64,000 nt of DNA from the NCBI GenBank assembly GCA_963281255.1, contig OY725491.1, positions 5,816,857-5,880,856 of the forward strand. Direction: 5' to 3'. The notes beneath the pieces are model-generated. The model searched no databases. It was not told where the DNA came from and saw nothing but the letters and a program-made list of their open reading frames with translations. The first letter of the stretch is position 1. Every line of letters begins with the position of its first letter. The position numbers and the translations under genes are program-made. The stretch is from Aphrocallistes beatrix. Taxonomy: Eukaryota; Porifera; Hexactinellida; Sceptrulophora; Aphrocallistidae. Below, piece by piece: positions 35 through 59,626 of this stretch.

Positions 35-3000
35 CTGGGCGATTGCACTGGACTTGTACGACGGTATCCGATGAACATGTAGCTTGCTCAGAAGCACAAT
101 CACACAGTGTGACTTCATCACCATTACAATCGAAATCTTTCTGTAGTATTGGGAGGAAGGAAGTAGTGATATTAGTTATAGGAACAGTTGTAACGCTTAA
201 AGCTGTAGTCCCATCGTTTTCTCTACACACTACATCTGCATTTTCTTGAGTAAAGTCATCTCCGCAAAGATAATACCATCCATTTTCGAAATAGCGCACA
301 ATTTGAGGATAGGAAACAGCATTAGGGGCATATGACTGGCATCCATCTGCAAAAGAGATAGGTTAAATTGTCTCGTCTAGCTTTCAGTTACAAAGTATAT
401 ATATTATTTATACTTACCAGCACTACATGTTAACAGGACGATGTAGTTGCTAGAACAGAATGTCCCCACATGAAAATCACATTCCAACAGTTCAGTTTCG
501 TTCCCGAGGCATATAACATCACTAATTACAGAATCTGAGTAGTAAGGGTATCTAAACCGGTATGCTCTTTCAGATGATACTGCAAATCTGTAACCAAGCT
601 GTCTACAGGCTACGTCACTATCTGAGAAATCCCATCTCTCAAAACAGATGTCACTCCACTCAGTGTAATAAACTTGGAGCTTATCATCTGATAGCAACCT
701 CAGTTGTCCAAGTTCTACAAAAGTTTTTATAAAAAGCTGAAAATCCTATCAAGAATAAATGTAAGATTTAAAGCTGTTTTTATAAGTACCTGTCGGCTTG
801 CATTGTACAAGTACGATGTCCTCACTATTACATGTTTGAGGAGAAGATGAACAGATGCATAGAGACCTCTCATTGCCATTACAATCGAACACGCTATCGA
901 ATATTGGATAATTCACTCCAGTGTTATTTCGAGACGTATCACTAATTGTTAGGACTTCTCCATATCCACTCTCACGACAGACAACTCTCGCTGTCTCCAT
1001 TGTAAATCCTTGCTTACAGATGTAGAAGTTGGCATGTCCATCGAAATATCTAACCGGCGTCAGTGCTTGGTCTCCATTGGCCAAAATTGACTCGCACTCT
1101 CCTATTAATGTTTCATAATCAATAAATATTAATAAAGGAATCGGAGTTTATTATTAAAAAACTTACTTATTTCACATATCAGTTTGACTTTGTAAAAACA
1201 GCTCGTAGTTGATACGAAGGGACAATCGAAGAGATTCAGCTCATTGCCTGTGCATTTCAAATACCGATTCCAATAAGTTTGATCATCTCTGAAGATGTCC
1301 CACGTTCGGAATGTTCTATATCCTTGTTGCTTGCATGCTACTAAGGCATCTTCGCGGGTGAAACTGCTTCCACAAACATATCTCCAACCATCAGAGTATA
1401 TTTCTAGATACTTTCCAATGCTAGTGCTGCGGAGTATGCCATTTGCTATAAAAAAAATATATTATGTATATCAATCTTTTTTCTCATTTTAAATTCACAA
1501 CTATCTGATGTGAGTAATTACCTGGTTGTCCGCATTGTACTTCTACGACTGATCCACTACTACAGGTTTGCTGGTATACTGAACAGTTGCAAAGAGATGG
1601 TTCATTTCCATAGCAAGAGTACTGGAGGGGATATATCTCTGTGTTAGGAGGTAATTCTAGATCGCTAACACTTCTATGAGCGATAGACATAGTATTGGAT
1701 GTCTCCCTACACACTACATCTGCATTCTCAGGAGTAAAACCATCGGCACAGAGGTAGAAACGCTTTTGGGCAATAAATAACTCAACAATGTCATAGTCTT
1801 CTGTTGCAGACTGAGCATGGACTTCACAGTCTCCTAAAAATTAAAAAATTTAAAACACGAAAATCAGAATGATTTAAGCTTCAATTAATATTTCATTGTA
1901 CAAACTAACCTCTGTTACAGAATAGTGTCACTTTTCCATAATCTCTGTAATAATGGAAATAGTTATGATTATACTTGTAATGGCATTTCGTAACGCTGTA
2001 ACTACACTCAATAAGACTGGCTTCACTGCCTGTGCATTTAACTTCTCCAAAATCGGTCGGGAATGATGTAGCAATCTGTGTAGAGGTGGTGTATGAGGAA
2101 TAACTAACGCTAGTGTAACCTAGCTGTTTACAGGCGATATCTGAGTCTACTTGATCCCAATTGAATCGACAGATATGGCTCCATCCACCGTTATAGTATA
2201 TCTCAAGCAAATTAGGAAACTGATTACTGTAGCGGAGACTTCCCTCATCTAGAAATGTTAGAAATAATACAATCATGCATTATCCAATGTATAGATAGAC
2301 TTCTTTCTAAATTTGCCAACTTAATCTATGTACTCTTGAACTATGAATTAAAATGTAGACTAATTTACCTGGAGCTTTGCATTTAATTGCAACAACGTAG
2401 TCACTATTGCATTGTTTCAATATGTGCGTGCAATCACATAAACTCTTTTCATCTCCCACACAGTTCACTTTGTAAGGATAGATTTGGTAACCAACAGCTA
2501 GTTGAGGTCTGTAGACAGATACCACTGATTCTGCTCCGTTCTTATACCCATTTTCACGACATATGACATTTGCATCAACGATATCAATAAATTCGTGGCA
2601 GAGATAGTACCAGTTCACATTGTTGTAAATCCTAGCTGGTTGATTCGTTGTGTGTCCATCTGGTACATACGATTGGCAACCCTCTATATTGAAGAAAAAG
2701 TATAAATATACATAAGAAATAAAACAAATTATAAAAGTTTGGGATTGAACAAACCTAATCTGCAAGATATATGGATGTTGTAATCACAGTTTTGGATTAT
2801 GCTATGTTGGCATTCTAAGATATTTGACTCATCCCCAAGGCACAAAATGTTCGAGAGATAACCACCCATTGATTCGCGGTATCCATGATACACACGGTTA
2901 TAACTCAATGCATCTCGGTACCCCAAGTATCTACAGACGACGTCAGAAGCTGCTTTGTTCCAATTGTAATCACAGACATCCTTCCAACCATCTTTATATA

Positions 3001-6000
3001 CTTCCAATGTGCCAGATGTCTTGTTGCTAAGGCGTACATGTCCATTATCTATAAATGTGTATCAGATAAAATTTAAGATTCTTTGAAAGAAGTATTTTGC
3101 ACTAAGCAATAATCTTACCTGGACTTTTGCATTGAATATGCACAATTTGATTCGAAGAACAAGTCTGTTGAAATTCTCTGCAGGCACATACTGAATGCTC
3201 AGTTCCATCACATTGGTAATAATATGGATAGATAGGATAATCCGACGGTTGATAGTTGACATACGAATAAGTGTAAGCCTGGCTATCATGATTCTCTTTA
3301 CAAATAATGTTGGCAGTTTCCTGTGTGAATTGGTCTGCACAGAGTGAGTACCATTTATTGACGTAGAGGCGTACAGGTTGGAGTGTTTCAGGGTAGATTA
3401 GCCTAGTTTCACAGCCACCTAAACACATTTCAATTTAAAATGTATAGTCAGTAGTGCACAGAGATCAGAAAAGGTAACAAGTTATCAAATTACCTCTTTC
3501 ACACTTGACATAGCTTGAGTATTTGCAGGTTGTAGTGTTCACATGCATACAATCCAGTAAATTTGTTTCATTTCCAGCGCAGTAAACATCTCCAATACCC
3601 GGAGAATGATAGCTCTTGTAATGGTAGTAATAGTAGTAGTAGTGGTAGTGCTCATAGTAGTAAGCGTATTGGTAGTGGTACTGAGTGGAGTAGGTAATAG
3701 CTCCTCTGTACCCAGCACTGATGCAAGCGATATCAGCATCGTAGCGATTCCACGAGTAATCGCAGACATACCTCCAGTCTCCGTTGTATACTTGCACCTT
3801 ACCATAATAGTCGTTACTTAAACGGATGCTTCCATGTTCTAAATGATCGGAGATAACTGATAAAGAAACTTTACTCAAAAAGTCTATCGTTAATTTTAGT
3901 AAACTAATAATATCACAAATATGTCATTTATTCTTAATAAATACATTTTTTTGGAAAATATTATGTCTGGATTTTTTAATCAAAATGATCAGCTGATATT
4001 CGAAGCGAATATCTTTAATACTATATTTGTATATTTCAATTATTTTATATAATTTATAGGATCATCATATTTCATCTAATTACCTCAGCAATGTTACAGT
4101 GATTTATTTGATTCAACTCTCAGATGAACTCTCTGGAATATATCCAATTACTGGTTATAATTAGACCTGAAATTTAATCTTAAAAATGCTGTGCTTAGAT
4201 TTACACTACAAATCAAGGGTCAACTACGTAATTCGGATTCATTAAGATGATAGTTCTTATTATTCCAGACTTGATTGGAATAAACATGTGAGTTGTAACA
4301 TTATAATGAAAGTGTTCAGAAATAAGATATCAATTACAAGTAGTAATTTCTCCTTTTTCTCTTATAACAAGCAGTATTTAGAATTGAGCTTTGAAATTTT
4401 ATTATAAATCTCCTACTTAAATTATTGTAATAAAGTATGGTATATTAGTTATTAGTTAACTTACTTGGCTTATCACAGAGGACTGATACAACTGAATTCG
4501 AAGTACATATTTCTGATTGTGTTGGACATTTGCAAAGTGAAGATTCTGTTCCCAAACAACTATAATAGTATGGGTAGATCGGACGCTGTATGGTAATGCT
4601 TCCAGCTGCGATATGGTTGTAAGATAGTGCATTTGAGAGTTCTGTCTCTTGACAGAGAACATTAGCGGCAATGTCCGTGAATCCTTCATAACAGATGTAG
4701 AACCAGGTTTTGTCTCTGTATGTCTGTGCGAGTTTATACGAAGGTTGTGACTTGTTTGTAAATACCTCACAGCCCTCTGCAATTGAAAAAAATATAAAAT
4801 AAAATATTAAACTCCTTTACATTTTAAGTGTCATAAATGTTTACCTGTTTCGCAAGTTAGAGATATCCTGTAGTTGCAATGCATTGACAGGTGGGCATAT
4901 TTACAATCGGCGATTCTTGCATCATAACCGTTGCACGTGCCAAGTATCAAACTATACTTAGCTTGAGAGGTTGAGTAGGTGACTCCTGAAATTCGGTGGA
5001 AAGACTTCGCACGGGCATATCCAAGTTCCCGACATGCAATGTCCATCGTATCAGAGAAATGAATGTCGAAGTTGTAATAGTAATAGTTAGTGCACACATA
5101 TGTCCATCCAGAATCAGTGTAAGCTTGAACTACTCCTGATGTCCTATTTGTCAGTCTTAAAGCACCATGTACTATGAGGAGAGAAATGATAAATGGAGAG
5201 TAGTATTTAGTAATGAGTTCTATTGAAAACATAAATACCTGGACTTTTGCACTGCACTGCAACTGCTTCCTGAGAATAACAAGTCTGGCTGACTTGTGGA
5301 CAGTTACAGAGACTCGCTTCGCTACCTGTACATTTATGTTGGTATGGATAGAAGGGGTACCCAAATGTGAGGAGGTCTCTGTGAGAATACGTGTACTGCA
5401 CTGCCTCAGTACCATAATTCTCATAACATATTACGTCGGCATTCTTCTCAGAAAAGTTGTCACTGCAAATGTAGAACCAACTCTCTCCACTGAAATACTG
5501 TACTATTTGAGTTGAATAGTCAGTATTGCGGAGATAAGATTCACATTTATCTATAAGAAAAATAGTTTTTCAAAAGATTCCCTATATTATTAAATATAGT
5601 GCCTACGTATTAGGAAATGGAAAGTTTCAAAATTAATGCATTGGATTATTTGTAATTAATAGAACTTACCTAGACTACAGTCTAAATAGATGTGTTCATG
5701 GGACTTGCAGAGTTCAATTTCTTGCGTGAAGGCACAATTTAAGAGATTGTCCTCATCTCCAGTACAATTAACTTTATTTATTTTGAACTCTGAAGTCAGG
5801 TTGGGATGATGTTGATGTATCCTATAGGTATTGGCCCTTCCAAATCCTAGACTTCTGCAAGCGACATTTGAATCTTTAATGTCCCAATAGTCATCACAGA
5901 TGTAGCCCCATCCTCCGTAGTATATTTCCAATAGCCCTTCATGGCCAAGGCTAAGTCTGAGGTCTCCGTCTTCTATAAGTATAAAACTCGTTAAATACTA

Positions 6001-6385
6001 AGTTTCTACTCTACATATTGAAGTATCTTATCAAATGTGTACATACTTACTCGATTTATACATTCAACTATCACTATTTATCAACTTTTCAATTTATGTA
6101 TTAATCATGTACTAATTTGGAGAAACATTTTTTATCTCAAAATAATCATTTAGTAAGATACATATTAAAATTAAACATAAACTTTCACAATGCCAGGACC
6201 TAAAGTACATATATGGAAGTGTTAGATAGTAAGAGTAATTAATTATTAGTTCGATTAGACTTATTTAATTCATAAACTAATATTAATTTTATGTTATATT
6301 CATTATGTATTAACTTACGTTGAGCACATGTTGATAGAAAATGTGCTAGAGAACACAGAATTGCGAAGAAGTGACTGTATTTCAT
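35..6385 (-). CDS. SRCR-repeat protein, 5' part (signal peptide plus 14 alternating SRCR-type modules); continues beyond the left edge
   Basis: Exons on the minus strand: 6385-6319 (ATG at 6385; hydrophobic leader beginning MKYSHFFAILCSLAHF), then 5972-5670, 5550-5239, 5171-4845, 4776-4465, 3838-3494, 3418-3119, 3048-2755, 2683-2369, 2248-1910, 1833-1522, 1445-1167, 1101-790, 714-418 and 346-35. Every exon is one module and every intron is phase 1 with GT/AG ends. Odd modules (A type, first at 5972-5670) are six-cysteine scavenger-receptor domains with motifs such as WGYICDDYWD and VACRSLGF. Even modules (B type) have eight cysteines, with an N-terminal Cys, (F/Y)xxLC, ADVVCREN, SLCxC, QTC and VQC. 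The order is strictly A-B seven times. SRCR domains are extracellular disulfide-bonded ligand-binding modules, so the product is secreted or the ectodomain of a receptor; any membrane anchor would lie off the window. The intron 3839-4464 (626 bp) holds nothing I recognise. The exon plan is very consistent; the ligand is unknown. Confidence 0.9.
3605..3690 (-). repeat. Tyr/His-rich codon expansion inside one SRCR exon
   Basis: Within exon 3838-3494 a run of TAG/TGG-type triplets (plus-strand view) encodes a loop made almost wholly of Tyr and His, including a stretch of six tyrosines. It makes this A-type exon the longest (345 nt against 279-339 nt for the other A exons). The reading frame stays open and the flanking SRCR cysteines are intact. 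Confidence 0.75.
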
Positions 6386-28297: not shown

Positions 28298-30816
28298 TAT
28301 CTACTTTATTAGTCTCCACACTCACTGCATTAGAAACCTTTTCAACACGGCTTATTGAAGAGTTAGAGAGAAACAGTAGCGATATTCTCATAGTGAACTC
28401 TGAACGCATTACAATCATAGTGCAAAAAGTTCAGCTATGCCAAATGTTTGGGAGTGATAGTGTTCCTGGAATAATTTTACCAAAAAGAACATCTGATGAT
28501 GCGGACTATTCAGTTTCACTTCTATTACCATTTGAATATGTGGGTTCACAATGTAATCTGACAGTAAGTTCACTCTTAATAGGTTATTGTATCCATAGGC
28601 GCCAAGTGTGGGTACCTGGGAGGGGCACCCCCTCAAGGTTTGGGGCCTGTGGGGGCCGTGGTGCTGGACAATGGAGAAGTAGAGGAAACTGTGGTATGGC
28701 AGGACTCCACACAAACTTATAGGTTACAACTAAACCCCAAAATTATGTTAATTGAGTCTACATATATAGCCTAATTACATTTTTCTTCCACTATAGTCCG
28801 ACAACAATAGCTGTATATCGATATTTGAGCATCTAAGATTTAAAATAATTTCTGGGGGATAAGATCCCAGACCCTCCCTTACTGTCGCTCGCTTCGCTCG
28901 ATCTTGGCCCCCAGGTTTTATTCTATTTTCCAAAACTTGGTGCCTATGATTGTATCCATTCCCTAATTTGAGATGTATATGATTTTGAAATTTTAGGATT
29001 TATATATGTGCATTCCATACTACTAAAATTAATTACTTTCCTTGTTTTTGCTAGATTGCCACTTCTTTTGTGAGAACGGCTAGGAATGAAACAAGAAAAT
29101 CTGATAATCCAATTCTAGGAAGTAATATATTCACAGTAACTCTACCAAATAGATCAAGACACACTAATTTAGATAAAGAGGTTTGTATTTGTATTTACTC
29201 ATATTTGTATTAAAAAATAAAAATAGCAAATGGATGTGTACGTGCGAGTTTGTTTATCTTATCTAAATATGCACATACAGTATATTGGTTAGCAGCTAGC
29301 AAAATAAAGTCTTGACAGCTATTATTTTCTAGGTAACATTCTTATTCGATGTATATTCTAACACATTGTTTGAGAGTATATGCGTATTTCTGAATGGTAC
29401 AAATTGGATAATGGACAGTCTTACAACGTTAGTAAACAGCACGAAGCAGACCAAATGCATATCTCCACATCTGACAAGCTTTGCGGTTTTTGTTACGCCT
29501 CGAAGGTTAGGAGGTAGTGATGATTTACAGAGAGTGGCGTCAATTGTCAGTTATATCGTTGTTTCGATTTCATTTCTGGCATTACTTCTCTCGTTAATTC
29601 TGTTTATATACGTATACCGGAAAAAGTTTCTTCAAAGTAGAAGCGAATATTGTATACTTCAACTACTGTTTGTCACTGACATTAGCTTTTGGGACGTTCC
29701 TTTTTTGAATCGAGACAGCGACATTCAATGGAATTTCATGCAAAGTTATTGCGTTTCTTCTCCATTATATCTGGCTGACTGTGTTTGTGTGGACACTCTG
29801 CAATGGAATTCTGATTCTCTACAAACTGACGTGGGGTAAGGAACTTTGTGGCTTAAATTATCAGTACAAACTTTATGAATATACTGTATCATGTACTAGT
29901 CTGTCTTTTATCAACTCAGTCCCTTAATTTAGGAATTTGGAATAAACACAAGATATACATCTACTTGATCGTGTTTGGTTGGTGCTTCCCAATCATCATA
30001 CCTATCATTACCATAGCGATTAAGCATGGGAACTATGTTAAAACTGATGAATACTGCTTTCTGACTCATGAAGATGGGATAATTTGGGCTTTCGTTGGTC
30101 CAATCATCTTCATTTTATTGATAAACATTACAATACTCATCATATCAGTCGTGCGTATCTCTACAACTAAATCTAGCTCTGAAAGACTACAAAAAAGACA
30201 GGTTATCAAGAATGCACTCATTTCTTCAATAATCCTGACACCGATACTCGGCATTCCTTGGATTCTGCTTCTGCTTAATATTTTAATCAAGCATCCTATA
30301 ATTCAATTGTCTTTCATTTTAACTAACGGACCCCTGGGAGTGTTCTATTTCTTCGCTGTTACAATGAGAAATGAAGAAGTGAAGCAAAAATTTAGAAAAC
30401 CAAAGATATATAATGATATGTCCAACACTCTTTCTAGCAACAAAAAGTCAACAGGAGCTTGTAACAAATTCCACTCCACTACATCTAGCTCAAGTTATTC
30501 AAATTCAGGTGATATGAATTAGTAAAGTAATCATTGAAGCATTCACCTTAATGTTTATGTATTTAATTGTTCATTATCTGCTATATTTTAACATTTTCAT
30601 TTACCTCTCTTGTGTTTAGATTCATCGAGAAGTGCTCCAATTCAATCTGTAAACCAGAGACCCAATAACGATCTTCCTAAATTCCTTCCAAGAGCCATAA
30701 AACCAAATAAAAAGATTGATAATCAGGACAGAAAATCGAAAGATGATACATCCTGCCCCAAAAAGGAACCTTTTGAAACTCTCACGCCTAAGGATGAAGT
30801 CTACTCAAATTTGTAA
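28298..30816 (+). pseudogene. 5'-truncated, frameshifted adhesion-GPCR pseudogene (GAIN end, GPS, 7TM, tail)
   Basis: Remaining exon equivalents are 28298-28563 (lacks its start and acceptor), 29055-29180, 29333-29835, 29933-30508 and 30620-30816. The signal peptide, CTLD, FN3, Ig and GAIN helical exons are missing. The TM1-3 exon is 503 nt against 499 nt in intact paralogues because of a 4-nt insertion in the TM1 end (near 29612), and a G-to-T change makes an in-frame TGA in the original frame near 29707. The GAIN and GPS parts match receptor 1 (subtype a), whereas everything after the GPS matches receptors 3-5 (7TM subtype II), so it is a mosaic. A MITE lies in its first intron. The last two exons and 3' flank are almost identical to those of receptor 3. 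A transcribed 7TM-only product from 29933 onward is possible but unsupported. Confidence 0.85.
28594..28948. mobile_element. hAT-like MITE with 8-bp target duplication and paralogous empty site
   Basis: Ends CATAGGCGCCAAGT and ACTTGGTGCCTATG are inverse copies. ATTGTATC flanks both sides (28586-28593, 28949-28956). The homologous intron of receptor 1 near 16804-16820 has the uninterrupted site with one ATTGTATC, so the insertion is directly visible. The GC-rich interior contrasts with its surroundings. Confidence 0.85.
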
Positions 30817-49678: not shown

Positions 49679-52600
49679 ATGCATAGAGTACTATTCATCA
49701 TTCTCATCTTTACATTTGGAGGTCAGTTTAATATTTACGTTCGAGCGAGAGAATGTGTGTAGATATCCCTATCATACGTAATCAATTCATCTTTAAATTT
49801 TAGAAATTACTTTAGTCTCTAGTAGTGGTGTGTCATTTGAAATTATTTGAAATTATTTATTACAAAATTACAGCTTAATTAGTTAAGGGAATGATTGTAC
49901 ATGAACTTTATTAAGTGAAATAATTCTTGAAAATGTTATCCTGAAATAGACTCCGCTTAATCAGAACAATTGGTCACGGATATTTTGTCTCGATTAAGCG
50001 GAATTCCCAATTAACCAATGAAATTTAGTATTAGCTATGTAAATAAACCATTCATTTCCTGGAGACTTATCCCAATTGAGCGAAGTTGATTGTATTGATC
50101 TTCTTGTAGTTTCTTGTGAGGGAAATTGCTTTTCAAGATCAAACTGTGATCTTAAGATCGGAAATAAATGCTTTGTTTACATCAAAGAGAGTGTTAACTG
50201 GTTCGATGCAGAGAATTGCTGTGTAGCATGGGAAGGTCATCTGGCTAGCATAGACTCATATACTGAAAACATGATGCTTGATATGATTCTTGATCCAGAC
50301 AGGTTTACTTGGATCGGTTTGAAGTATATTACAGGGAATAATAAGTTTGAGTGGACTGACGGGACTACAACTAGTGATTATGATAACCGTGAATCTCTAA
50401 TGGGACAAGCAGATGAGTCATGCTACTATTCTCTCGGCTCATCTGAATACTGGATTCATTCAGAATGTAATATAACAACCATTGGAAATATGAGAAGTTC
50501 ATACATCTGTAAAAATAGTAGTGAGTTTAATTAGAATAATAAAGCAACATCATTAGTAATCCGACTTGTTTTCTATGATCAAATATTCAAATTTCTCCCA
50601 AAAATTATCCATTTTATCTTTTTAGTCCCAGATGCTCCTCAAAACCTAACTGCGACAAATGTCACATCGAATTCAATTCAAATATGTTTCTATCCTCCAC
50701 CTTGTATCAACCAGAATGGTCCAATCAGTTCATTCAACATTTCCTATCAAGGAATGACGTTTGATGTATCAAAAATATATTATACTTTGAATGTAAATCC
50801 TGTATATCCTTTGAGAGAATATTTCTGTACAAATCTTACTGGTCTACAAGAATATAACAACTACACTATAACAGTGAGTACTGTTAATAGTGCTGGAACA
50901 GGATCTGAAAGTACATCTATCACACAATTAACAGAACAAGCAGGTATGTTTATGCGCTGTAAGTTTGTTTCATCAAATTAATATTATTCTCTTTTGAACA
51001 CGATTCCGTGGTAGAGTACCGGGTGTCCCAAAAAAAACCAACCCATCACGCTTTGGATTCCCTCAATTTTCTTTAAACCAAGCGTGCTTCGCTTACTTGT
51101 GCTGCGCAGCTAGTGGACACTTTGTGTCCGCCGGAGGCGCCCTACTGGCGCCTGAGGTTACATTGATTATTAATAAGGTAGATAATATCTCTAAATACGT
51201 CTGTCTTAATGCTACAAGTATAATCGATCTCGCACGAAAAATCACTAAATTTGTCAATTTTTAAAAATTTGTTGCGTAATGATGACGTCATAACAGAGTG
51301 ATGAGTCATCATTTTTTGATGATAGTCGAATTATATACGAATAATATTAATATACACATTTTGTTAAAATTTCAGCCTTCTATCACCTAAAATGGCTGAG
51401 TTATAGTGGAACCTGAAATTTCTAATAATACAAAAGGTGATAATGACGTTATAATTCCACGACGAACACTTTATTGAACAATTGTTTATCTCAAACTATT
51501 AAAATTTAAGCTCTAATAGGCATTTATCGCAAATTGCTCAGAGATCCTATGTCCGATGGATCTAGGAATGAAATAGGTTTAGAGGGCCTCATATTCACAA
51601 GTTTCTAGCTCTTCTAGTTTTTGTGCAATAAGCAAAAGAATGAAATCACAAAATGCTACGTAATGATGATGATTTAGCATATATTGAAAATCGTATGATG
51701 AGGTGCACATCTAGATATATGTACGCAGCTTTACAAAAGATTTCAGGGCGATATCTTTTAAACTCTGGTATGTGCACCACTTACCGGCTGGCCAATAGCA
51801 CTCATTTGAGTACTGTGCTACTATATTGTTATATTGAATCATAGATCCAATATAATAATATAGGAAGCACACTAAAAATCAGCATCTCAAATTGTGTGCA
51901 TCAGAAATTTTAGTAGATGTAATCCCACAGCTTGTGGTCTCTTCTGCATGGATCTCTTTAATGGGTTAACCACTGAATGCCTGACTGCGTAAATAACTCC
52001 CGGTACCTAGTCTCTTCTGCTCCGAATGACTCTGACGGGCTACAGACTTGGAGGCAAGGTTTGTAAAGTTACTCCCATTGCTAAAATTCTTGATCCAGCT
52101 AAAAATGAAAAATGATTGAATTACTGTGGGCTATAGGCAGGCCGAAACATGCATGAATAGTGCTTGAATTTGTATGATCCAATATGATCCAGTTTTGAAG
52201 TAAGTCTAGATACAAAATACTTGCTTTCTAACATTCCACTGCTTGCTTGGAAGAGTCCTGGGACATGCTGCTATCTCATTCTAAAAGATTTTTTATTTCT
52301 AAAATTCATCTGCGCAAGTGAATTAAGTTTATTTAGAAATGTTTGAAAAGTCAGAATATTCAGGTTTTTGTGACAGTTTGTGGCATGGTACTTTTAGAGA
52401 TACACTTCACTCCACTAAATAGATACACATGTACATACATATGTCAGCTAATATCAATCTATTCTTATCTAGCTCCCTCTACTCCACCATTAAACATCAG
52501 TATCGAATCATTGAACAGTTCAGCTATAAGAGTAGATTGGGAACCTCCAAAACCGATTCATCACAACGGAATTATAACAGAATATGAAATTCAATATTAT

Positions 52601-55600
52601 GAAATGCACCAAAACATTACACTCAAAATAATAAACAACTCTGCAAATAAACTCTTCGAAGTAATGACAAATCTTGATTCAAATGTTAGCTACTGTGTGG
52701 CAATTAGAGTTGCTACAATAGCAGGTGTTAGTGAAAGGAGTTCTCCTGTTTGTACATTCACAGGTATGTACTATGTATTATTCTTTAACTATCTAACTTG
52801 ACTTGTATCTTGCTCCCAATCTGAAAAGTGAAATCTTATATTTAGGGTTAGAATTCAATGTTTTTTCTGAAAGATGAGAATTTTAAAAATGTCGGTCGAC
52901 AGACCGATAGTGCAGCTCTAGGAAGTGACTCAAAGGAACATGAAATGTGAATATAAGAATACATCGGGAAATCCTCATTTTATAGCATTCTCAGGGTGAA
53001 ATTTGGAAACTAAATATTAAAATACCCTATATTAGCCGCTGAGAACTCGCTTTTAGCTTAAAATAAGATTTTTCTCAAAAGGTGTGAAAGTTGTATTATC
53101 AGTATGTTAATAACTGATAAATATTCATATTAGTACATTCAAAGCACGATAATAGGATCCTACATGGTGAAATACCCTACATTAGTCGTTGAGATCTTAC
53201 TTATATCTTTAAACAAAGCTTTGCAGTGGTGGTGTTAAAATATGAATATATCCTTAGTATTAAAACTCGATTAATGTGTATGTGTGTATATATATATATA
53301 TATCCTTACTATTAAAACTCGATTAATGTATATTTATTTATTTATTTATATATATATATATCCTTACTATTAAAACTCGATTAATGTGTATATATATGTG
53401 TATATATATATATATCTGTAACGAATTGATTGAAGAAACTGCCAGTCACAGAAAGCTGATTTTTAGCATGTGGGAGTCTTTTGGCTATGGCTCAAGTAAG
53501 TTCTGAGTTCAGACCAAAATGTCGACTCATCATGGAATTATGACGTCATTGTCACATTTTTAAAAGTTAAGCAACAGAGTTATTCGAGCATAACTCAGCC
53601 ATTATAGGAGATAGAAGGCTGAAATTTTAATAGAATCTGTATACTAACATACCTCACATATGATACAACTATCAAAAAATGATGACTCATCACTTTGTTA
53701 TGACGTAATCATTACGCATCAAAAATTGAAAAATTATACATACATACATACATACATACATACATACATACATACATACATACATACATACATACATACA
53801 TACATACATACGGACGGACGGACGGACGAGATACTCCGTCCATGCCACAAGAGCATCTCCCTATAGGAGCTGCACTAAAAATTATCTCAATTGATATAAT
53901 TAACGATAAATACAATTAACTTATATCTAGATGCACAAAATTTGCTTAGTTTACTAATGCAAATTACTCTGTTAATATGACACTCCATTTAAAATAGCTA
54001 AAATTTCTTTCCTTTATAGACTCTATCCCCAAAATAATCACTCCAAGCGCTGAAATCATAGATGTCTTGTTCATTGTGATTGAAAGCATTAGCTGTGTTG
54101 CCACTGGAAAACCAACTCCAGAAGTTTACTGGACGCAAAATCTAGAGACAAAATTGACTGATTCTGACACCCTACAAGTAGAGATTAGTGATTTAAGAGA
54201 AGGAAATAACGTGTTCTACTGTGTTGCACATAATCACTTAGGAAGGGACGTTGTCTCTGTTACATATAAACTTAGTGAAACAGCGAAAATTAATAAAGAT
54301 AGATTAGAAATGCTGACGAAGGAACTGGATGAAGTTGAATTTATAACTGAAGAGATCGCACAGCAAAGTATAGCTTTAATAGAAACAATAGTCAATTTAA
54401 CTATTGCCAATGTCGAAGGTGAAGATGAGAGTGAAATATTGGAAATTGCTGTTAATGCGATAGAATTGATCCTTAAAAAATCAAATCATACACTCGGTTA
54501 TTCTACTACAAGCAGGATTACTCATATATTGAGTTCTGTGAGAGAGAGTGCAGTTAGCGCCGAATATCAATTCCAACACGTAAGTTTAATTATTGCCCTT
54601 TTTAGCAACTCACAGCATACTTATTCTTTACTACATAGTTGTTCGGTTAGAAAACCAGCAGAATGCTTTTAAGTTAGTTTATAGAACAACTTCAAAATTC
54701 TAACCAATTCAGGCATCTCTATTACTCCCAGTATTATAAATTGCTATTTTCAGGAATCAGAAGGACAAGCGATTGTGGCTACTGCGTCTACTTTATTAGT
54801 CTCCACACTCAATACATTAGAGACCTTTTCAACACGGCTTATTGAAGAGTTAGAGGCAAACAGTGGCGAAATTCTCACAGTGAACTCTGAATTCATTACA
54901 ATCATAGTGCAAAAGTTGCAGCTATGTCAAATGTCTGGGAGTGATAGTGTTCCTGGAATAACTTTACCTAAAGGAACATCTGATGTTGCGGACTATCCTG
55001 TATCACTGCTATTGCCAGTTGAATCGGTGGGTTCACAATGTAATCAGACGGTAAGTTCACTTTTACATGTACAGAGTGACGAATACGTTCTATTACAAGC
55101 TTCATTAAGTGTAAAATTTCATCTACTCAAACAATCTTAGTTATTATGGATTTAGAGATTGTAATTCGAATATTTTCAATAATGTTAAAATATTTTCAGG
55201 TTTAAGACCTAGAAATGTGTTTGTATGGTGAGTTTTGAAGAGAAAATGTGTCCTAACACGCAGCAAAAATCGCGAATCAGGATCCACTGCTTCTGTAAAA
55301 AATGTCTTCATAATCGATGTTCCATGAGAATTTAGAATCAGATACCTTTCATTCACCATAGAAATATTCCATAAATCTACTTCATTCATTATCAAAAATG
55401 GTAGAAAGTTATACATTCGCGAGTTCAATTGAGGTACCTTTTGCAAAAACACCAAAAATTGAACTTTCCCATCATCAAAATCTGTTCCAGATGGTTCTCA
55501 AAATGCACTGATCTGAACATCCTATATATCTAAAAAATTAGAGTGTTCGAAGAAAATGCGTGAGCTAATTTTTCCTACTACTTGAAGATTCTGGAAAGGT

Positions 55601-58600
55601 AATTTGAGCAGTGGCCCCAAATTCGCGATTTTCGCTTCGTGCCAGAACACATTTTCCCCCCTCAGAACTTACCATACAAAATATAGTTCTAGGTCTTAGA
55701 TTCGAAACATCTTTTGGAATCATTGAAAAAGTCGAATGACGATTTCTAAAAATCATAATAACTAAGATCGTTAGGGTACAGGAAAGTTGTACCAAATCAA
55801 GCTAGAACAGGATTTGTCGCCATTAATTGATTATGTAGTTATTGAATCTTAGATTAATTCATTTAAAAATTTACTATTAAACGTTCATGTCTTCATAAAA
55901 CAATTGCTTTGTCTCTAGATTGCCACTTCAATTGTGAAAATGAAAAAAAATGACACAAGCACTTTAGATAAATCAACTTTAGGCAGTGATATACTGACAG
56001 TAACTCTTGCAAATAAATCAAAACATAGCGATTTAGATAAAGAGGTACGTAAGTTTAGTATTAATATTTTTGTATTTACAATCGATAATTTTACGTAGAA
56101 TATTATTGAAAGATTTATCAAGATTTATCTTATCTAATCGAGATGTACGGTTCAAAAGTATGTAGAAGTGTCATATTTGCATTTTAAGTATTGATATAGT
56201 CATTATTTTTAGGTGACATTCACATTCGATGTATATTCTAATACATTGTTTGACAGTATTTGCGTTTTTCTAAACGGTACAAGCTGGGTTAGTAATGGCC
56301 TCACTACAATTGAAGAGAGTTCTAATCTAACCAACTGCATTTCTCCACATCTGACAAGCTTCGCAGTGCTTGTTACGCCTCAAACAGTGAATATTATTAA
56401 AGATCGATTGGAAATGCTAACGGAGGAACTGGATGAAGTTGAATTTATAACTGAAGAGATCACACAACAAAGTATAGCTATAATAGAAACAATAGTCAAT
56501 TCAACTATTGCCAATGTCGAAGGTGAAGATGAGAGTGAAATATTAGAACGTGCTGTTAATGCGATTGAATTGATCCTTAAAAAATCAAATCATACACTCG
56601 GTTATTCTACTACAAGCAGGATTATTGGCATATTGAGTTCTGTGAGAGAGAGTGCAGTTAGCGTTGAATATCAATTCCAAAATGTGAGTTCAATTTTTGC
56701 CCTTTTTTGCAACTGACATATACTTATTCTTTCGACATAGTTCTCCGGTTAGAAAAGCAGTAGAATGCAATTAGCATTAATCCCAGTACTACGTATAAAT
56801 TTAGTGTTATTTTCAGGAATCAGAAGGACAAGCAATAGTGGCTACTGCGCCTACTTTATTAGTCTCCACACTCAATACATTGGAGACATTTTCAACACGA
56901 CTTTTTAAGGAGTTAGAGACAAACAGTAGCGATATTCTCATAGTGAACTCTGAATTCATTACAATCATAGTGCAAAAGGTGCAACTATGTCAAATGTCTG
57001 GGAGTGATAGTGTTCTTGGAATAACTTTACCTAAGAGAACTTCTGATGTTGCGGACTATTCAGCATCACTTCTATTACCAGTTAAATCTGTGGGTTCACA
57101 ATGTAATCTGACGGTAAGTTCACTTTTACATGTAATAGAACTTAGATTAATTATTTTAAGGTTTCACTGTGTTAAATAATCTTGTCTTTATAAAACTATT
57201 GCATTGTCTCTAGATTGCAACTTCAATTGTGAAAATGATAAAAAATGACACAAGCACATCAGATAAATCCGTTTTAGGCAGTGATATACTGACAGTAGCT
57301 TTTGAAAGTGAATCATTACATAGCTATTTAGATAAAGAGGTACGTAAGTTTAGTATTAATGTTGCAGTGCAAACGCGAGATTGGTGTACACGCGTGTACA
57401 CCAGTGTGAACGCGTGTTTCCATTAAGTTTGATAATCTCGCGTTTACACCAGTGTAAACGCGAGTACCTATATAATTAAATATTGTGGTTGATTTATTAC
57501 TCTAGAATACGATATGATGAAACGTATACTAATTACATCTTCTAATCTGATTTATTCTCGTGTGCAATTCGATTTCAATAAGTGTTATGATCTCGGTTTC
57601 TAGTTTTATTACTTAGGGAATTTTAGACACATGCATTGATATATTTGTGTATAGAAAAGGGACATTTGCGTAGAATTATCTTCGGTGCTATTGTGGGATT
57701 GTTGCAGTGTATACACTATCCACTGTGAACGCGTTCACACCGGTGTATAATTAATATAGTATAATGTTTTAACAACAATAAACAATTCATCATATCGTAT
57801 TCTAGAGTAATAAATCAACCACAATATTTAATTATATAGGTACTCACGTTTACACTGGTGTAAACGCGAGATTATCAAACTTAATGGAAACCCGGGTTTA
57901 CACCAGTGTACACGCGTGTACACCAATCTCGCGTTTGCACTGCAACATTAATATTTTTGTATTTACTAATCGATGATAAATTTGCGTAGAATATTATTGA
58001 AAGATTTATCTTATCTAATCGAGATGTATGGTTCTAAAGTATGTAGAAGTGTCATATTTGCATTTTAAGTATTGATAGAGTCATTATTTTTAGGTGACAT
58101 TCACATTCGATGTATATTCTAATACATTGTTTGACAGTATCTGCGTTTTTCTAAACGATACAAGCTGGGTTAGTAATGGCCTCACTACAATTGAAGAGAA
58201 TTCTAATCTAACCAACTGCATTTCTCCACATCTGACAAGCTTCGCAGTGCTTGTTACGCCTCGAAGGTTAGGAGGTAACGACGATTTACAGAGAGTGGCT
58301 TCAATTTTCAGTTATATCGTTGTTTCGATCTCATTTCTGGCATTACTTCTGTCGTTAATTCTGTTCATATACACCGGGAAAAGTTTCTTCAAAGTAGAAG
58401 CGAATATTGTATACTTCAATTACTGTTTGTCACTGACATTAGCTTTTGGGATGTTCCTTTTTGGAATCGAGACAGCTACATTCAATGGAATTTCGTGCAA
58501 AGTTATTGCGTTTCTTCTCCATTATATCTGGCTGACTGTGTTTGTGTGGACACTCTGCAATGGAATTTTGATTCTCTACAAACTGACTTTAGGTAAGGAA

Positions 58601-59626
58601 CTTTGTGACTTAAATTATCAGTACAAACTTTATGAATATACTGTATCATGTACTAGTCTGTCTTTTATCAACTCAGTCCCTTAATTTAGGAATTTGGAAT
58701 AAACACAAGATATACATCTACTTGATCGTGTTTGGTTGGTGCTTCCCAATCATCATACCTATCATTACCATAGCGATTAAGCATGGGAAATATGTTAAAA
58801 CTGATGAACACTGCTTTCTGACTCATGAAGATGGGATAATTTGGGCTTTCATTGGTCCAATCATCTTCATTTTACTGATAAACATTATAATACTCATCAT
58901 ATCAGTCGTGCGTATCTCTACAACAAAATATGGCTCTGAAAGACTACAAGAAAGACAGGTTATCAAGAATGCACTCATTTCTTCAATAATCCTGACACCG
59001 ATACTCGGCATTCCTTGGATTCTGCTTCTGCTTAATATTTTGATCACTGATCCTATAATTCAATTGTCTTTCATTTTAACTAACGGACTAATGGGAGTGT
59101 TCTATTTCTTCGCTGTTACAGTGAGAAATGAAGAAGTGAAGCAAAAATTTAGAAAATCAAAGATATATAATGTTGCAAATATGTCTAACACTCTTTTTAG
59201 TAACACCAAGTCAACAGGAGCTTGTAACAAATTCCACTCCACTACATCTAGCTCGATCTATTCAAATTCAGGTAATATGAAATTGCAGAGTATCATTGAA
59301 GCATTAACCTTGATCATTTTGTATTTGATTGTCAGTTGTTCATTATATTTTAACATTCTCATTACTTCTCTTGTGTCATAGATACATTGAGGAACACTAA
59401 GACTCACGCTATAGACCAGAAATCTCATAATGATCTTCCTAAATCTCTTCCAAGGGCAATTAAACCAAATAAAACGATTGGTGATCGAAACAGAAATTCG
59501 GAAGATGATGCATCCTCTCCGAAAAAGGAACCTTTTGATGCACTCGCCCCTAAGGATGAAGTCTTCTCAAATTTGGGAAGCATAATGATCTGGGAGCAAC
59601 TGGAAGAAATAGAAACAAAGCTCTGA
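49679..59626 (+). CDS. Adhesion-GPCR-like receptor 5 with two tandem GAIN-GPS units
   Basis: Exons 49679-49721, 50110-50520, 50626-50943, 52473-52763, 54020-54579, 54754-55050, 55919-56044, 56213-56683, 56817-57113, 57214-57339, 58094-58592, 58690-59271 and 59382-59626 join in frame (4266 nt, 1421 residues). Leader MHRVLFIILIFTFGG; CTLD 15-151 without EPN or WND; two FN3 (152-354); Ig plus GAIN-1 helical part in one exon; GAIN-1 beta part; GPS-1 with HLT at 728-730. The GPS-1 exon continues without an intron into a second GAIN helical part (TVNIIKDRLEM), GAIN-2 and GPS-2 with HLT at 1026-1028, then one 7TM of subtype II and a tail with DEVFSNL and an extra C-terminal segment. Introns in the two units are almost identical, so the duplication is recent. 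Long introns 50944-52472, 52764-54019 and 55051-55918 hold repeats, and 57340-58093 holds a long-armed element. No disabling change was seen. Confidence 0.88.
49947..50084. mobile_element. pogo-like MITE abutting the CTLD exon of receptor 5
   Basis: Related to 7126-7281: starts GACTCCGCTTAATCAGA and ends with an altered inverse (AATTGAGCGAAGTTGATTGTA). Receptor 4 lacks it at the corresponding intron position. Its right end lies only about 25 bases before the exon start at 50110, so the acceptor's pyrimidine tract is partly new sequence. Confidence 0.6.
51078..51465 (-). repeat. Repeat family R1, inverted copy in a receptor 5 intron
   Basis: Begins with the reversed GC-rich tail (AAGCGTGCTTCGCTTACTTG, GGACACTTTGTGTCCGCC) and runs into the reversed body (TGATGACGTCATAACAGAGT). 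It stops near 51465 without the AT microsatellite end. Confidence 0.7.
53251..53830 (+). repeat. Repeat family R1 copy with three stacked 5' ends
   Basis: The start phrase (TCCTTACTATTAAAACTCGA or a one-base variant) occurs three times, at about 53251, 53304 and 53361, each followed by a TA-rich microsatellite. Then the normal body follows. The GC-rich tail is replaced by a TACA/CGGA microsatellite. It lies between the last FN3 and Ig exons of receptor 5. Confidence 0.7.
53736..53827 (+). repeat. TACA and CGGA microsatellites
   Basis: About 18-19 units of TACA followed directly by about four units of CGGA. Open frames across it on both strands (repeating Tyr-Ile-His-Thr or Met-Tyr-Val-Cys) are microsatellite translations. 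Confidence 0.9.
55132..55769. repeat. Foldback-type inverted repeat in a GAIN-1 intron of receptor 5
   Basis: Left-arm phrases such as AATCTTAGTTATTATG, TTTAAGACCTAGAA and AAAATCGCGAAT recur in inverse order and orientation on the right (CATAATAACTAAGAT, TTCTAGGTCTTAGA, ATTCGCGATTTT). The arms are roughly 150 bp or more with moderate divergence and a centre near 55445. It has no coding capacity. Confidence 0.7.
57361..57946. mobile_element. Long-arm inverted-repeat element in a GAIN-2 intron of receptor 5
   Basis: Ends GTTGCAGTGCAAACGCGAGA and TCTCGCGTTTGCACTGCAAC are exact inverses, and the arms match for about 170 bp (for example the GATTTATTACTCTAGAATAC block and its inverse). ATTAAT flanks both sides (57355-57360, 57947-57952); TTAA with one more base in the ends fits equally well. 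The duplicated intron 56045-56212 keeps the empty site near 56059. The arms repeat GTTTACACCAGTGTAAACGC-like small palindromes. Confidence 0.85.

Follow-up and report, generated by a model that had tools for sequence, protein, structure and literature searches.

A sponge adhesion GPCR gene with two GAIN-GPS units in series ahead of a single 7TM region

We found an adhesion GPCR gene in which two GAIN-GPS units follow each other ahead of a single 7TM region, and we take it to be a novel form of this receptor type, with two self-cleaving joints in series. The GAIN-GPS domain is known to cut itself and to conceal the built-in activator of the receptor; one such unit per receptor is the usual adhesion GPCR layout, without being a formal criterion. 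The gene lies in a stretch of 64,000 nucleotides from Aphrocallistes beatrix, subsequently referred to as the window, whose numbering is used for all positions. TatC, taken as a marker for mitochondria of the Oscarella type, gave no match. Judged by the sequence, the double layout is very probably present in a real protein.

Gene model and domain order

The gene occupies 49679..59626, and it and all its parts lie on the forward strand (+). Its 13 exons have AG/GT borders, and when joined they can be read through from the ATG to the stop codon without internal stops, giving a product of 1,421 residues. The initial annotation had recognized the tandem GAIN-GPS layout, but the span it assigned to the gene (54020..58592) proved too short. 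The predicted order from N- to C-terminus is a C-type lectin domain, two FN3 domains, a weak Ig, two GAIN-GPS units and a single 7tm_2, all according to Pfam except for the GAIN parts, which were assigned on other evidence.

Exon 1 (49679..49721) holds the start codon and a hydrophobic stretch that by eye resembles a signal peptide. It is followed by the exons of the adhesive N-terminal domains, namely exon 2 (50110..50520) with the lectin domain (Lectin_C, residues 42-136, E 9.3e-11), exon 3 (50626..50943) with the first FN3 domain (fn3, residues 154-251) and exon 4 (52473..52763) with the second of the two fn3 counted in the protein. Exon 5 (54020..54579) encodes an Ig-like part (Ig_3 / I-set, below the cut-off) and the helical part of GAIN-1, the latter recognized by homology with exon 8. 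GAIN-1 continues in exon 6 (54754..55050), whose encoded protein is 85.9% identical to that of exon 9, and in the joined-frame model also in exon 7 (55919..56044). In exon 8 (56213..56683), GPS-1 runs with no intervening intron into the helical part of GAIN-2. This link had been noted before, and at the DNA level the junction turned out to be the breakpoint of a tandem duplication. In the joined-frame model, exons 9 (56817..57113) and 10 (57214..57339) complete GAIN-2. GPS-2, Stachel-2 and the first part of the 7TM region are found in exon 11 (58094..58592), the second part of the 7TM in exon 12 (58690..59271), and the cytoplasmic tail with the stop codon in exon 13 (59382..59626).

A profile search over the joined protein returned GPS twice and 7tm_2 once (E 6.5e-32, residues 1049-1283), in agreement with the proposal of two GAIN-GPS units and one 7TM in one gene. 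The second GPS (residues 996-1033) stands directly before TM1. The HLT motifs are both intact and lie exactly where they had been placed, at residues 728 and 1026, and the Stachel segments that follow are identical over nine residues (TSFAVLVTP). Unit 1 on its own scores 30.8 bits against the Pfam GPS cut-off of 22.5, and a scan of the genome places the two GPS matches of the window at 56258-56371 and 58139-58252. Two GPS stretches in a single open joined frame thus take the place of the usual one. An erroneous joining of two genes is ruled out, as the units have no 7tm_2 match between them and are linked by exon 8.

Duplication of the unit and changes since

The two units are a direct duplication of DNA, introns included. 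Copy 1 (54278..56381) and copy 2 (56382..58265), delimited by blastn against each other, contain GAIN-GPS units 1 and 2 with their introns and are 85-93% identical in the aligned blocks. The units are sisters with 99% support. Each copy has a dispersed repeat in an intron that the other does not share: the repeat at 55114..55788 in copy 1 has inverted ends and further copies elsewhere in the genome, and the one at 57354..57953 in copy 2 has inverted ends of 168 bp (96%). Most probably, a head-to-tail duplication of about 2.1 kb, containing one GAIN-GPS unit, took place inside an adhesion GPCR gene. The exchange would have fused the end of the GPS in frame to the linker that precedes the GAIN helices, placing two units in series.

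Between the coding parts of the units, 65 of 876 nt differ and there are no indels, as against about 16 gap events over some 395 columns of the introns. The internal unit 1 has 20 nonsynonymous changes out of 28, where about 74% would be expected without selection; for unit 2 the count is 19 of 35. Internal units elsewhere in the genome gave 23/32 (C7, with 35 further sites ambiguous) and 18/29 (C17), so the nonsynonymous counts of these three genes do not show that the amino acids of the internal unit are constrained. In the same comparisons, units that adjoin the 7TM or occur singly likewise range from high (13/19, 22/26, 6/8) to lower shares (11/21, 12/24, 4/11, 19/35), and the internal units therefore do not clearly stand apart from them. 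The absence of stop codons is a weak sign of selection, since 534 of 5,000 neutral simulations left both units stop-free.

Double receptors elsewhere and the identity of the units

Two further loci, C17:797-800 kb and C7:1955-1965 kb, likewise encode two GAIN-GPS units ahead of one 7tm_2, with one uninterrupted frame at each locus. What is repeated comprises an Ig in the C17 receptor and, by eye, EGF and CCP-like parts in the C7 receptor, unlike in the window gene. The C17 receptor has the appearance of a fusion between two distinct paralogues. L024, which is closely related to the C7 gene, has a single unit. The count of double receptors should be taken as a minimum, because the C7 pair escapes the Pfam GPS scan and was recovered by the Pfam GAIN scan; five GPS matches located 480-1,123 bp ahead of their 7TM match were left out of the count.

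The Pfam GAIN model has no match in the window gene. A profile of its units matched PDB chains weakly (best ADGRL3, E 0.054), and the 7TM together with the beta part before it matched ADGRD1 (E 2.3e-31) and ADGRL3 (E 6.9e-29). For the internal unit of C17, the predicted structure is a GAIN fold, the best six PDB matches all being solved GAIN structures, and its Stachel is predicted as a strand running straight into the next domain. We call the helical part of the window units GAIN because of its position, the match of the beta part and 7TM to ADGRD1 and ADGRL3, and the fold prediction for the C17 receptor. In profile comparisons, the window units matched those of C17 in the GPS part only (probability 92.5), and the Pfam-GAIN-positive units of C7 only by a weak C-terminal match (4.9); between C17 and C7 units the figure was 89.4 over 176 columns. 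A PDB search with a single C7 unit matched no GAIN structure.

Possible working of the two units and known receptors

If both units cleave themselves at HL|T, the mature receptor would consist of three fragments held together at two non-covalent joints. From the motifs, we consider cleavage at both HLT sites about as probable as its absence, and the chances are likewise balanced for the double layout and both cuts combined. The initial annotation had described the middle part as an agonist-like segment; this was too little, since after both cuts it would comprise Stachel-1 and the entire second GAIN up to HL. Direct tethered agonism would be limited to the membrane-proximal Stachel, which adjoins TM1, while the distal unit would add another joint along the line of force that can break. 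Should the distal joint break first, as would happen in about half of the ruptures if the joints were equal, the adhesive head would be shed and the tension lost, the proximal Stachel would stay covered, and a free N-terminal TSFAVLVTP would stay on the cell. Such a series-joint function is a tentative suggestion, possible rather than probable. A fuller version, which we consider unlikely as a whole, combines cleavage of both GAINs into a three-part receptor with a distal joint in the role of a mechanical fuse or decoy, shedding the lectin/FN3/Ig head and limiting the force on the proximal Stachel. Rupture would also free a second, identical Stachel, which would form the N-terminus of the middle fragment left on the cell and could act either on the 7TM of its own receptor or on one nearby, and the layout would have arisen separately in three receptor subfamilies of the lineage.

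It is also conceivable, though we rather doubt it, that the double unit is present in the protein and that its distal GAIN is a passenger of recent origin, which folds, is perhaps uncut, adds only length between the adhesive head and a working proximal GAIN, and may be lost again. The dS between the units of only 0.14-0.15, the lack of clear constraint on the internal units, the single unit of L024 and the internal Stachel of C17 (TSFAVLE, where five aligned 7TM-adjacent copies have TSFAVLT) fit such a history. However, HLT is retained in the internal unit of all three double receptors, the coding parts are free of the indels that are frequent in the introns, and the nonsynonymous shares do not set internal units clearly apart.

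Quite unlikely, in our view, is that the exons serve mainly in one-GAIN isoforms (5-6-7-11 or 5-9-10-11), with little or none of the double protein being made. From exon 5 to exon 11, every one of the six introns is in phase 0, so that skipping exons 8-10 or 6-8 would preserve the frame and leave one HLT. Yet such isoforms would have no use for the GPS-1 part, whose HLT is intact, and the C17 and C7 receptors require no splicing between their units. Moreover, as GPS-1 and the start of GAIN-2 share exon 8, a transcript that uses one also carries the other; with halves of both units in this exon, unit 1 and unit 2 cannot serve as clean, mutually exclusive alternatives. An assembly duplication or a dead gene is extremely improbable: the gene does sit among similar receptors that are densely clustered, and the 7TM match of a neighbour (28300-30474) is split over two frames, but its own frame has no interruption between ATG and stop, and the divergence of the units (7-15% in aligned blocks) together with the different dispersed repeats in their introns speaks against an assembly duplication.

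The reading as a receptor with two joints in series bears on an open question for adhesion GPCRs, namely the way in which force on the extracellular region bares the tethered agonist. A natural two-joint receptor, with the same agonist peptide beside TM1 and far off, would separate joint breakage from 7TM activation and provide ready constructs for asking whether Stachel dissociation, position or mere exposure drives signalling. The gene also shows that GAIN-GPS units are addable as modules, by intragenic duplication here and apparently by the joining of paralogues at C17.

The arrangement had been thought unusual. This agrees with the literature searched, in which we found no tandem-GAIN receptor, but it is not unique in the genome, where two more genes share it. 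A 2026 review (PMC13197933) names GAIN as the single extracellular element present in nearly all adhesion GPCRs, and its accessible portions do not mention 'tandem' or 'second GAIN'. Amphimedon has a large sponge-specific set of adhesion GPCRs, with a GPS domain in 28 of 40, which share Ig, fn3, GPS and 7TM with the window gene (PMC4302439); the available sections of that paper contain nothing on 'two GPS' or 'tandem'. Choanoflagellate adhesion GPCRs share the GAIN/7TM module and varied N-terminal domains (PMC12716839), and 'tandem', 'two GAIN' and 'multiple GAIN' are absent from the main text as far as accessible. In the excerpts of PMC5548486 'two GPS' refers to two mutants, and none of the tandem-GAIN wording was found in PMC11697300.

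The window gene has in common with the class B2 adhesion GPCRs (ADGRL, ADGRD, ADGRB, ADGRE5) the 7tm_2 region, a GPS directly before TM1, HL|T, the Stachel and adhesive N-terminal domains, and differs from them by an extra GAIN-GPS unit ahead of the first. Polycystin-1 resembles it in having a GAIN with GPS ahead of the membrane part, but has one GAIN and a membrane region of another kind. It has been termed an atypical aGPCR (PMC13197933, in the portions accessible). In contrast to polycystin-1, the membrane family that follows GPS-2 in the window gene is 7tm_2.

Layout and origin of the tandem GAIN-GPS gene

The genome searched amounts to 100.5 Mb in 28 contigs, and the window corresponds to G000:C4:5816857-5880856 (contig C4 of assembly G000). 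When the 13 exons of the window gene (49679–59626) are joined, they encode 1,421 residues without internal stops. Pfam recognized Lectin_C, two fn3 domains, two GPS stretches and one 7tm_2 domain in this product; an Ig domain scored below the cut-off. The open joined frame and the two GPS matches ahead of one 7tm_2 bear out the initial annotation, which had proposed a single gene with two GAIN-GPS units before one 7TM and HLT motifs at residues 728 and 1026; both motifs are present in the joined product. The expectation of complete GAIN-GPS units held for the GPS part in the profile search of the joined protein, whereas the helical part of the units was not recognized by the Pfam GAIN model, either in the genome scan or in the joined protein. 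A six-sequence profile of window-type units matched PDB chains weakly (best E 0.054, ADGRL3). With the Pfam model silent and this match weak, the helical part is regarded as a putative GAIN from its position and from the predicted fold of a relative (see below). Unit 2 together with the 7TM matched the solved ADGRD1 and ADGRL3, starting at about residue 191 of the query.

The DNA copies containing unit 1 (distal, 54278–56381) and unit 2 (7TM-adjacent, 56382–58265) align across exons and introns in three blocks, with identities of 86% (795 columns), 85% (233 columns) and 93% (329 columns). The duplication breakpoint is within exon 8, at the change from GPS sequence (ACGCCTC) to GAIN sequence (AAACAG); GPS-1 therefore continues into GAIN-2 without an intron, as had been read from the sequence beforehand. 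A tree built from seven units of the family groups units 1 and 2 as sisters (99% ultrafast bootstrap); the pair stands next to L029, a paralogue with a single unit that lies 0.93 Mb away. Copy 1 alone contains a dispersed element at 55114–55788, and copy 2 a different one at 57354–57953 with 168-bp inverted ends. The copies also diverge, so a false duplication by assembly, the error that had been considered at this locus, is very unlikely. The arms of both elements have many further copies across the genome: arm 57354–57521 gave 95 matches and arm 55114–55291 at least 40 (40 scored among 1,546 candidates).

The window gene is an adhesion GPCR with a layout that we found described nowhere in the literature searched, and the observed arrangement stands. 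The initial annotation knew of no described receptor of this kind. Our searches of open-access papers found no tandem-GAIN or two-GPS receptor either. Term searches found no mention of a tandem GAIN in the GAIN numbering paper (PMC11697300) or in the available parts of a 2026 aGPCR review (PMC13197933), the choanoflagellate catalogue (PMC12716839) and the Amphimedon repertoire (PMC4302439).

Further double receptors in the genome

Pfam GPS matches numbered 69 in the genome, and 57 of them had a 7tm_2 match at most 150 bp downstream. The remaining 12 comprise two internal copies (window gene and C17), three without a nearby 7tm_2 match (C1:8577845, C1:759611 and C11:114206; possibly polycystin-like or other GAIN proteins) and seven lying 438–1,890 bp ahead of their 7tm_2 match. 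Two of these seven were examined. At C16:1318153, the GPS passes into the 7TM in a single frame; C4:5846234 belongs to a neighbour receptor within the window (28300–30474); matches to its 7TM exon are split between two frames, so it is perhaps a broken copy.

At C17:797–800 kb, an open frame of 1,088 codons has the order Ig-GAIN-GPS-Ig-GAIN-GPS-7TM (Ig judged by eye). Unit 1 of this frame shares 92% identity with two single-unit paralogues and unit 2 shares 88% with a third; between units 1 and 2 the identity is 51–52%. These values suggest a fusion of two different receptors in which the first 7TM was lost. At C7:1955–1965 kb, a frame of 3,290 codons contains two Pfam GAIN matches, an HLT ending each unit and then one 7tm_2; the units are 85% identical. 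In this receptor (L009, G000:C7:1955000-1964900), calcium-binding EGF repeats that are nearly identical to one another also form a long array (14 EGF_CA stretches). Because unit 2 of L009 is nearer to the single-unit paralogue L024 (dS 0.046) than to unit 1 of the same receptor (dS 0.188), L024 may have lost one unit. Double receptors make up at least three of the roughly and incompletely counted ~100 merged 7tm_2 loci, in three subfamilies, and one of the seven 7TM loci of the window. In two of the three (C17 and C7), no splicing question arises between the units.

Using 15 sequences, we predicted the fold of 448 residues from the C17 receptor that span one Ig, the internal GAIN-GPS and the Ig after it. 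The model (mean pLDDT 74.2, pTM 0.63) has five helices and a beta region, and its strand 353–360, right after HLT 350–352, runs straight into the next domain. The best six PDB matches were all GAIN structures (ADGRL1, ADGRL3, ADGRB3, two of ADGRE5, and ADGRG6; E 6.3e-11 to 1.3e-08, TM-score on query 0.38–0.47), followed by three axonemal chains (E 4.5e-06 to 5.2e-05). The model and its GAIN matches make an internal GAIN with another domain behind it in place of TM1 plausible.

Maintenance and possible role of the two units

The coding sequences of units 1 and 2 differ at 65 of 876 nt without any indel (dN 0.060, dS 0.144). In ~395 columns of alignable intron outside the inserts there are 35 mismatches and 16 gap events, one of them at an arbitrary cut end. 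Since coding indels are absent against these intron gaps, the reading frame is kept in both copies. A stop-free frame by itself is weak evidence for maintenance, because 534 of 5,000 simulations also lacked stops. Substitutions make a weaker case than the kept frames. With L029 as outgroup, 20 of 28 assigned changes in unit 1 and 19 of 35 in unit 2 were nonsynonymous, where ~74% would be expected without selection. The internal units of C7 and C17 gave 23/32 (plus 35 ambiguous sites) and 18/29, and units next to the 7TM or occurring singly varied widely in these comparisons (11/21, 12/24, 13/19, 22/26, 6/8 and 4/11). These counts do not demonstrate protein-level constraint on the internal units of the window gene, C7 and C17.

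In the window gene, HL↓T is kept in both units and the Stachel TSFAVLVTP is identical; only unit 2 adjoins TM1. If both units were cleaved, a pull on the head would load two non-covalent joints in series. For isolated GAIN-Stachel joints, the available part of the review gives 95–160 pN (PMC13197933). In a Bell-model sketch, with parameters chosen by us to fall in this range, the distal of two equal joints breaks first half the time, and in 75% if its off-rate is threefold higher. Distal rupture would release head and force without activating the proximal Stachel, and the distal unit would therefore determine what share of pulls leads to activation. The Stachel freed at the distal joint could act again. 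The C17 internal Stachel reads TSFAVLE and all five compared 7TM-adjacent copies read TSFAVLT, a single hint that an internal Stachel may be released from agonist duty, or decaying.

Other receptors and the mitochondrial contig

The mitochondrial contig (G000:C28, 17,996 bases) carries cox1, with TGA read as Trp 11 times. In a count by eye against the best PDB match, none of its 11 AGA codons falls at an Arg: five are at Ser, three at Gly, two at Ala and one at Asn. CGN codons, by contrast, fall at Arg in 6 of 8 cases. In the glass sponge mitochondrial code, AGR is Ser and ATA is Ile. This codon use, together with the receptor–kinase fusion described below, suggests that the DNA probably comes from a glass sponge.

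Two C17-family receptors, L014 (G000:C17:811000-816000) and L016 (G000:C17:1025000-1034000), have a long Ser/Thr-rich repetitive stretch before the 7TM and no GAIN recognizable by eye; a motif search found no HLT in them. At L020 (G000:C4:5880800-5890700, minus strand), receptor exons at 5709–6119 and 1225–5603 probably belong to a minus-strand receptor at the window's end. They comprise a C-type lectin exon, whose protein shares 93% identity with that of exon 2 of the window gene, and six FN3 matches. Domain number changes quickly in this C4 receptor cluster.

An open frame at L028 (2050–5874 of G000:C11:3540000-3546000) encodes EGF, GPS and 7tm_2, followed at the C-terminus by a tyrosine-kinase-like domain (PF07714, E 2.2e-52). 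Because this domain, inspected by eye, has HGD in place of HRD and no DFG, it is perhaps a pseudokinase. Among animals, GPCR-tyrosine kinase fusions are reported in sponges only, according to the available part of PMC12716839; L028, which combines an adhesion GPCR with a tyrosine-kinase-like domain, is the same kind of fusion as those described there.
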